64,000 nucleotides of DNA from Desulfovibrio sp. UCD-KL4C (GTDB taxonomy: Bacteria > Desulfobacterota > Desulfovibrionia > Desulfovibrionales > Desulfovibrionaceae). The number at the start of each line of letters is the position of its first letter. Positions within the stretch are counted from its first letter, which is position 1. Shown piece after piece: positions 19,886-22,288 of the stretch. Where the stretch lies: positions 558,001 through 622,000 of the forward strand of contig NZ_VCNC01000002.1 of the NCBI RefSeq assembly GCF_006210265.1, read 5' to 3'. Below the pieces are notes generated by a model, which saw only the letters and a program-made list of their open reading frames with translations, was not told the origin of the DNA and ran no database searches. The position numbers and the translations under genes were made by a program.

Positions 19886-19961
19886 TCCTCGGTGGCTCAA
19901 TCGGCAGAGCGGGTGACTGTTAATCACTAGGTTGGGGGTTCAAGTCCCTCCCGGGGAGCCA
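19886..19961 (+). tRNA. tRNA-Asn (anticodon GTT), first copy
   Basis: A 76-nt cloverleaf. The acceptor stem TCCTCGG pairs with CCGGGGA (one T-G pair), and the CCA end is encoded. The anticodon loop CTGTTAA holds GTT, reading Asn codons AAC/AAU. The T arm GGGGGTTCAAGTCCCTC is normal. Identical in sequence to the copy at 20182. Confidence 0.97.
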
Positions 19962-20181: not shown

Positions 20182-20257
20182 TCCTCGGTGGCTCAATCGG
20201 CAGAGCGGGTGACTGTTAATCACTAGGTTGGGGGTTCAAGTCCCTCCCGGGGAGCCA
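20182..20257 (+). tRNA. tRNA-Asn (anticodon GTT), second identical copy
   Basis: 76 nt, identical to the tRNA at 19886, CCA encoded. The identity continues through the downstream hairpin with only a few changes, whereas the sequence between the two units differs. This is a tandem duplication with individually kept promoters. Confidence 0.97.
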
Positions 20258-20294: not shown

Positions 20295-20371
20295 TTCTGT
20301 TTTTTAATCCAACACTTACAAGATAAACTTCATTTCTTTTAAAATCCATATCCATACGCTATAATAAAGCT

Positions 20372-20785
20372 ATGAACACCCTATCCTCACGATTAACTGC
20401 ATTAAAAACATCTACAACCGCTACCGCCCCCATTATCGAGGATTTAAATGATGAATCTAAGCTTAATGAGGTACAATATGAAAAATTTATTATCTGCAGA
20501 CAATACTCTCACCAACTTACCAAGCCAACTTTGGCAATAAGCATAAACAACTCTCACGAGCATGCTTTCTTAAACCCGTATGGTCATATTTTTCAGCTTA
20601 AATGTTTTTCACATGTTTTTGGATGCTTGATAAATGGAACTCCTTCATTCGAATTCACATGGTTTTCAGGATACTCGTGGCAAATTGCTATCTGTAAAAA
20701 ATGTTTTTCTCATTTAGGCTGGAAATTCACTTCCGATTCTAATTCATTTTTCGGACTTATAAAAAATAAAATTACAATTCAATAA
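20372..20785 (+). CDS. Small CULT-domain protein (cereblon thalidomide-binding-domain fold)
   Basis: 137 residues, no signal peptide, cytoplasmic. Residues about 38-135 match the CULT domain known from cereblon and from bacterial single-domain proteins. The three cage tryptophans are present with exactly the human spacing (Trp97, Trp103, Trp117 for human W380, W386, W400) in FTWFSGYSW and HLGWKF. The zinc pair Cys108/Cys111 (CKKC) and the LNPYG loop (Asn68 for human N351) are kept. The first zinc knuckle is degenerate: Cys42 is present but the partner three residues on is Tyr45. Human H378 is Phe95. Bacterial CULT proteins bind cyclic imides and uridine-like ligands in vitro; the natural ligand is unknown. 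It lies alone between the tRNA pair and pyk. Only a weak Shine-Dalgarno is visible. Confidence 0.85.
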   Translation: MNTLSSRLTALKTSTTATAPIIEDLNDESKLNEVQYEKFIICRQYSHQLTKPTLAISINNSHEHAFLNPYGHIFQLKCFSHVFGCLINGTPSFEFTWFSGYSWQIAICKKCFSHLGWKFTSDSNSFFGLIKNKITIQ

Positions 20786-20866: not shown

Positions 20867-22288
20867 CTATTTGTAGTACAACTTAATTTCGTTGGTTTTA
20901 GATACAGTCTGTCCAGGGGTTGGCTGACCTGAAACAAGAATGTACCCTGCTCCTCTAGGAAAATCTTTGTTTTCTTCAAGGTAATTTTCAAGGCGAGCTC
21001 TATGCCCTAGAATTGTTGTATCGGTTAAAACTGGAGTTGTCCCCCAGAAGAAGTTCAAATATGCGAGAACCCTTTTATCTAGTGTCAGACAATGAATAGG
21101 CTGTCCTGGCCTACGACTACAAAGCACTTTTGCAGACGCTCCGCTACTGGAGTGGCAAAGAATAGCCGGACTATCAATATTATCTGCAAGCAAACAAGCA
21201 GAATAACTTAAATATTTAATTGGATTGGTTTCTTTTGCAGGCAGATAAGGACCATCAGCTCTTTCAAGATAATACGGTTCAGTGGCTTCTGCAATCTCAC
21301 GAATAAAACCTACAGCCTCAGCAGGATAATCCCCTACAGCTGTTTCTTCGGAAAGCATACAACAATCAGCTCCATCCATAATAGCGTTTGCTACGTCATT
21401 AGCTTCCGCACGAGTAGGAATCGGATTCTTAACCATTGAAAGTAACATCTGAGTTGCAACAATAACAGGCTTCTGCGCATGACGGCATGCTCTGATCAGT
21501 TTTTTCTGAATAACAGGAACAGAAGATAGCTTGCATTCAAGGCCTAAATCTCCACGCGCGACCATGATAACATCGGCGACCTCTAAAATTTCTTCTATAT
21601 TATCGACAGCATTCTGCCGTTCAATTTTAGCAACAACAGGGAGCATTGCTCCATGCTTCTGCATTTCAGCTTTAACATCTTCGACATCCTTAGGAGTCTG
21701 AACAAATGACATCGCTATTGAATCAAGACCTATCTCAATTGCACCGATAAGGTCGACCCTGTCTTTTTCCGTAAAGGCAGCTAAAGCCAGGTTCTTACCG
21801 GGAAATGCAATCCCTTTGCGCGAAGATAAGATTCCAGCATTTTGGGCCTGAAGTTTATAAAGCTTATCTTTAATAATTGTTTCTGTAACTACAAACTGCA
21901 AAACGCCATCGCTTAACGAAACAAGCATTCCGTCTTCAAGGCCTTCAAGTAAAACAGGTTGATCAAGGGGAATAAACGGGCAGTCAGTATACTTTTCACT
22001 CTCCTCAGACAGCCCAAGGTAGACACCTGCATCCTGTCCGATTTCAAGAGGCGCACCTGCAATTACACCAACTCTGATTTTAGGCCCGCATAAATCGCCC
22101 ATGATAGTAAGAGGTATTCCAAGCTCTACTTCCACTTCCCGGATCATTTTAACAACAGGCCGGAAACTTTCAGAGTCAGAATGAGAAAAATTTAAACGTA
22201 AAATTCTTACTCCATTAAGAACCATTTTACGTATAGTCTCAATACTTCCAGAGGCTGGGCCTAATGTAGCGATAACTTTTGTTCTCAT
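20867..22288 (-). CDS. pyk: Pyruvate kinase
   Basis: 473 residues, normal length. Converts phosphoenolpyruvate and ADP to pyruvate and ATP. The N-terminal RTKVIATLGPAS motif, the catalytic-barrel segment VDNIEEILEVADVIMVARGDLGLE, the K+ and PEP-binding region LRLNFSHS, and the active-site helix PVIVATQMLLSMVKNPIPTRAEANDVANA are visible. The C-terminal domain is normal. GAGGATAG precedes the ATG. It is a single-gene unit, convergent with the CULT gene. Confidence 0.96.
   Translation of the reverse strand: MRTKVIATLGPASGSIETIRKMVLNGVRILRLNFSHSDSESFRPVVKMIREVEVELGIPLTIMGDLCGPKIRVGVIAGAPLEIGQDAGVYLGLSEESEKYTDCPFIPLDQPVLLEGLEDGMLVSLSDGVLQFVVTETIIKDKLYKLQAQNAGILSSRKGIAFPGKNLALAAFTEKDRVDLIGAIEIGLDSIAMSFVQTPKDVEDVKAEMQKHGAMLPVVAKIERQNAVDNIEEILEVADVIMVARGDLGLECKLSSVPVIQKKLIRACRHAQKPVIVATQMLLSMVKNPIPTRAEANDVANAIMDGADCCMLSEETAVGDYPAEAVGFIREIAEATEPYYLERADGPYLPAKETNPIKYLSYSACLLADNIDSPAILCHSSSGASAKVLCSRRPGQPIHCLTLDKRVLAYLNFFWGTTPVLTDTTILGHRARLENYLEENKDFPRGAGYILVSGQPTPGQTVSKTNEIKLYYK

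Follow-up and report, generated by a model that had tools for sequence, protein, structure and literature searches.

A stand-alone CULT protein of Desulfovibrio sp. UCD-KL4C keeps the tri-tryptophan cage and lacks one zinc cysteine

An open reading frame (ORF) in the window analyzed here, a 64,000-nucleotide stretch of the Desulfovibrio sp. UCD-KL4C genome, codes for a 137-amino-acid stand-alone CULT protein (20372–20785, forward strand), with the domain at approximately residues 38–134. Judged by sequence, the protein belongs to the known CULT family and lacks a zinc cysteine in a way that is unique among 194 distinct CULT sequences. The missing cysteine is more likely private wear than an invention. 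Bacterial CULT proteins are used as stand-ins for cereblon in drug work. The gene occurs as a single copy in its own genome.

Homology and a predicted fold identify the ORF as a genuine bacterial CULT protein, which bears out the initial annotation. A phmmer search of PDB sequences matched MsCI4 (MGR_0879) of Magnetospirillum gryphiswaldense with an E value of 1.5e-24 over residues 40–134, and "Protein cereblon" chains matched from 1.4e-14, with many near 4e-13. An AlphaFold2 model of the protein was built from its alignment with 56 relatives, the relatives being trimmed to the domain. Block pLDDT of the UCD-KL4C model is 90–98 from residue 41 on and below 50 for residues 1–29. Superposition, which had been proposed as a check, supported the predicted beta-tent fold: with Foldseek the model fit MsCI4 (e.g., 4v32_B) at 0.9 Å over 99 columns and also matched cereblon. 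MsCI4 bound to thalidomide-type drugs was among the matched structure entries. The Pfam search returned only Yippee-Mis18, below threshold (E value 0.0013; 19.3 bits, cut-off 26.6), and there were no matches to NCBIfam or to PADLOC defense models at an E value of 0.01. Cereblon carries a LON domain before CULT; this ORF is 137 amino acids long with no LON domain in Pfam and is not placed in cereblon. A canonical zinc-bound CULT domain has two CxxC motifs on one zinc. Because the UCD-KL4C protein pairs CxxY with CxxC, against four cysteines in 193 of the 194 sequences, we file it by sequence as a CULT homolog and not as a canonical zinc-bound CULT.

The tri-tryptophan cage is intact, and residues, family alignment, and predicted fold agree on this point. 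Its members, located by alignment to MsCI4 and by family counts, are Trp97 (20654–20662 on the forward strand, together with Phe95), Trp103 (20678–20680, forward), and Trp117 (20720–20722, forward). As first reported, they are spaced by 6 and 14 residues, as are human residues 380, 386, and 400 (PMC8900816, in part). Leu67-Asn-Pro-Tyr-Gly71 is also present as described, and Asn68 to Gly71 make up the NPxG hairpin motif (20573–20584, forward), assigned by residue counts in the family. For these counts, CULT rows of loci L031–L226 were pooled by profile into 218 aligned rows; after L197, a duplicate of the UCD-KL4C row, and all rows shorter than 75 amino acids had been taken out, merging of identical rows gave the 194 distinct sequences. 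His64, Gly71, Trp103, Gly116, and Trp117 are found in all 194 and Trp97 in 175, with the caution that 80 loci were picked by cage pattern, so that cage counts lean high and zinc counts should not. Phe95 had been listed as a deviation from human His378. It is none, because Phe occupies this place in 181 of the 194 sequences and corresponds to MsCI4 Phe77, which, like human His378, binds glutarimide through its backbone (PMC8900816, in part).

The 19 distinct sequences without the first cage tryptophan all come from one genus (label g39). Fourteen loci with this label (L049, L057, L065, L070, L072, L073, L083, L088, L093, L106, L109, L113, L114, and L115) are CULT paralogs that keep the four cysteines and the second and third tryptophans and are without the first tryptophan and the Asn of NPxG. 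Most are in tandem with a caged copy, and several share a different leader. These paralogs form a natural half-cage series.

The first zinc knuckle is degenerate. Cys42-Arg-Gln-Tyr45 (20495–20506, forward) replaces the first CxxC and is real in this assembly, and the second knuckle, Cys108-Lys-Lys-Cys111 (20693–20704, forward), is intact by sequence and family counts; on both points the initial annotation was correct. Cys42, Cys108, and Cys111 are invariant in the 194 sequences, and Cys occurs at position 45 in 193, with Tyr45 of UCD-KL4C as the sole exception. Tyr45 is private to this genome, and its conservation among Desulfovibrio homologs, which had been raised for checking, was rejected. 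The Tyr45 codon, TAC, is one G-to-A step from the Cys codon TGC. His47 (20510–20512, forward) is found in 41 of the 194 sequences, and the other 40 all have four cysteines. They include the nearest relatives with the gene, G002 and G003 (62% and 59–62% identical), which have CKEC plus His47; the knuckle segment reads CRQYSHQ in UCD-KL4C versus CKECEHK in these two. His47 thus accompanies intact zinc sites and did not arise to replace a lost cysteine; as an evolved replacement ligand it was rejected. Of the earlier proposal, the broken first CxxC is supported, and an altered metal site with His47 as substitute is not supported as an evolved design. According to Lupas et al. (PMC4287342, in part), domains such as CULT have the zinc site in essentially every case, and MsrB homologs have occasionally lost it. 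A change of a zinc cysteine in human cereblon, C391R, is reported to result in loss of function with no protein produced (PMC6156078, in part); by tryptophan spacing, human 391 corresponds to Cys108 and thus to the second knuckle, not the first.

MsCI4 is likewise stand-alone and agrees with the UCD-KL4C protein in predicted fold, cage, NPxG, and second CxxC and in having Phe where human cereblon has His378, but it keeps the first CxxC where UCD-KL4C has CxxY. At the cage base, wild-type MsCI4 has Tyr101 and UCD-KL4C has Phe119, as in the MsCI4 mutant Y101F (4v32). Human cereblon CULT shares the tryptophan spacing, NPxG, the second CxxC, and the Phe at the cage base, and differs in being part of a LON-containing E3 ligase adaptor, in having His378 instead of Phe95, and in its four zinc cysteines. 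The CULT genes of G002 and G003, both Desulfovibrionaceae, are at the same locus and keep His47 (the G002 domain is 70% identical), but have a complete zinc site with CKEC and a stronger leader (SLLKTARDT in L031).

The core of the protein is under purifying selection as estimated from sequence. By a simple counting method, core dN/dS is 0.14 against G002 and 0.12 against G003 (dS 1.4 and 1.7). Other pairs gave 0.10 (G007/G010), 0.067 (G004/G011), and 0.275 (G002/G003), with saturation in three pairs. Constraint was also scored at 22 core positions at which 90% or more of the 175 Trp97-bearing sequences agree. At one of these, Tyr45, the UCD-KL4C protein departs. Among the 175, 118 have no departure, 41 have one, and 16 have more; at least one departure thus occurs in 57, and the burden in UCD-KL4C is not unusual. 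CULT is fast-evolving throughout the genus, and the UCD-KL4C copy shows ordinary divergence and is no outlier.

CULT was found in 86 of 288 genomes of the family, covering 20 of 44 genera, and in 39 of a phylum-level sample of 395 genomes. Pattern matching in a collection of 84,980 species gave 333 stretches with 280 relatives among them, and the best 80 of the 280 carry mostly Desulfo- or deltaproteobacterial names. In the contig collection, a single-protein scan gave no match and an alignment scan did. No match to CULT was found in phage or plasmid records.

Within the genus, the gene is syntenic and present in 15 of 17 genomes, its own included. The locus is anchored by a convergent neighbor on the reverse strand (20867–22288; ORF list and locus comparison), presumably a pyruvate kinase, and by this neighbor G005 is the closest of the 16 other genomes (95%). 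The flanks in G005 are collinear, with BLAST nucleotide identities of 91.3% over 7961 columns and 87.3% over 6734 columns. The BLAST pieces leave a gap corresponding to 20331–20783, which takes in a promoter-like site and all of the CULT gene except the final two stop-codon bases, and no CULT match was found elsewhere in the G005 genome at an E value of 0.001. The gene is kept in the more distant G002 and G003 (82% nucleotide identity over the long piece), and G005 has therefore most likely lost it. G001 is also without the gene; its neighbor gene shows 77% identity, and a search of the 12 kb fetched gave no tRNA-Asn. In a separate locus (L080, genome G244), the CULT gene is broken by an in-frame TAG and was seen as two pieces, which may likewise indicate that loss of the gene is possible.

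A pattern scan placed the promoter-like site, TTTAAA-16-TATAAT, at 20338–20365 (forward), ending 6 bases before the ATG. Four such sites were found versus 2.7 ± 1.6 in shuffles, so the site alone is not above chance. A TATAAT-like hexamer stands 5–7 bases before the CULT ATG in 13 of 15 genus loci (L031–L044 and the UCD-KL4C locus, counted by eye), which suggests that the mRNA is possibly leaderless. Two tRNA-Asn genes lie upstream (19886–19961 and 20182–20257), the second identified by tRNA detection as tRNA-Asn (gtt) on the forward strand, and genus members have from 1 to 4 copies at this locus. Asparagine can give aspartimide. A functional link between CULT and tRNA-Asn was rejected: the adjacency is read as local synteny because tRNA-Asn is near CULT in all 15 genus loci and in 1 of the 15 loci scanned among 71 from other genera. 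Neighbors were clustered for 86 loci over about 8 kb on each side, some of them cut by contig ends, and no operon partner emerged across genera. The widest non-CULT cluster reaches 7 of 20 genera, its offsets being scattered, and the few clusters that hold a steady place do so in one or two genera each.

Bacterial proteins have been described as consisting wholly of the CULT domain (PMC4287342, in part). An expectation-maximization (EM) search of 136 leaders less than 40% identical (ungapped comparison), with the last 10 residues left off, recovered a 9-residue motif, approximately hydrophobic-hydrophobic-[L/F/C]-[R/K]-x-x-P-[D/E], with a log-likelihood ratio (LLR) of 351 versus 142–156 in 15 shuffled sets. 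On training-set scores, a segment reaching at least 5 is present in 117 of the 136 leaders versus 11.6% of shuffled leaders; leaders may extend upstream of the true start codon, and the UCD-KL4C entry among the 117 is spurious, lying upstream of its own ATG. The motif starts at a median of 33 residues before the first cysteine (10–90%: 29–37). When training was limited to 73 leaders judged to be outside Desulfovibrionaceae, 27 of 62 leaders inside reached a score of 6, compared with 6.4% of shuffles; in 24 of these 27 leaders the motif lay at 31–38 residues. At least eight short proteins can start within a few residues of the motif, with the Met chosen by the analyst. The UCD-KL4C copy, TALKTSTTA (residues 9–17; 20396–20422, forward), stands 33 residues before Cys42 and is weak, with a score of 2.4, and two family features, the zinc cysteine and the leader motif, are thus weak together in this protein. 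A model of L121 with 44 relatives has pLDDT below 50 in segments 1–4 and 18–35, and 10-residue block means of 34–49 over the first 40 residues.

The motif suggests a docking peptide or a lid over the cage, the lid being one reading of the leader because the N-terminal extension of human cereblon folds along the drug site (PMC4449219, in part). No report of the motif was found in the literature, for which the cited papers were covered in part and subscription papers were little reached. Likeness to the SspB tail was also considered and is weak. The UCD-KL4C genome has no match to PF04386, the test for an SspB-type ClpX adaptor, with E. coli and Caulobacter controls positive, and the motif presumably lacks the valines of the SspB XB tail.

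MsCI4 binds uracil and uridine (PMC4287342, in part), and the ligand induces folding of the MsCI4 site (PMC4449219, in part). C-terminal cyclic imides mark eukaryotic proteins for cereblon (PMC13001092, in part). By homology, the cage of Trp97, Trp103, and Trp117 would hold a small imide-like ring, with backbone hydrogen bonds to the ligand at Phe95 and Trp97. Candidate ligands are uracil or uridine, or a cyclic imide at the C terminus of a damaged protein, and bacterial CULT may read the same cyclic-imide mark as cereblon.

We hold with about even confidence that the UCD-KL4C protein is, by homology, an ordinary binder of imide or uracil rings, and that C45Y arose fairly recently as a private, weakly tolerated, and probably destabilizing change in a lineage able to lose the gene, not as a designed metal site. 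C45Y would loosen the zinc apex of a protein that may be dispensable in this lineage; folding is expected to be marginal or ligand-dependent, with the cage still binding once folded. This account is favored over an evolved site because Tyr45 is confined to this genome and the other three cysteines are still in place. Against it, the core is under purifying selection and C45Y is the sole departure at the 22 positions, the C391R evidence concerns the other knuckle, and a deletion in one close genome is no proof of relaxed selection in UCD-KL4C. The same selection, the retention of the other three cysteines and of all else that is highly conserved, and a histidine two residues past Tyr45 would fit a functional altered site, with zinc on Cys42, Cys108, and Cys111 plus Tyr45, His47, or water, and a more labile or redox-responsive CULT. 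We consider such a site possible but unlikely, given a tyrosine confined to one sequence in 194, a histidine frequent among sequences with all four cysteines, and the loss of the gene from the closest genome.

An error of sequencing or assembly, or a mutation of the laboratory stock, in a species that truly has Cys45 is improbable. The single G-to-A step, the restriction of Tyr45 to one genome in an otherwise invariant column, and the constraint on the rest of the core speak for it, but completeness is 99.91% for this 11-contig assembly, and the residues beside Tyr45 also differ from those of G002 and G003, so the segment has truly diverged. Somewhat more doubtful still is a family-level adaptor role, the cage recognizing imide marks and the leader docking onto a protease or chaperone, with UCD-KL4C as a weakened example. 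The motif scores far above shuffles, recurs in held-out leaders, and can begin some short proteins, and the leader is predicted to be flexible; yet the CULT neighborhoods showed no partner gene, the UCD-KL4C genome has no SspB and the motif presumably none of the SspB-tail valines, and a cage lid of the human cereblon kind (PMC4449219, in part) explains the motif equally well.

The finding would be ordinary if Tyr45 reflected no more than a read error or private decay. A natural CULT protein missing one zinc ligand offers a test of whether the cage needs its zinc apex. On a broader and rather speculative reading, bacterial CULT proteins might be two-part devices, an imide-reading cage with a conserved leader that either lids the cage or, by docking to a protease or chaperone, turns the protein into a damaged-protein adaptor parallel to cereblon; in UCD-KL4C, leader and zinc apex would both have relaxed, and its closest relative would have dropped the gene. 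Were this true, UCD-KL4C and G005 would form a natural loss series from which the function might be worked out. A close species pair with and without the gene, together with a conserved leader motif, provides handles on the native role of CULT.
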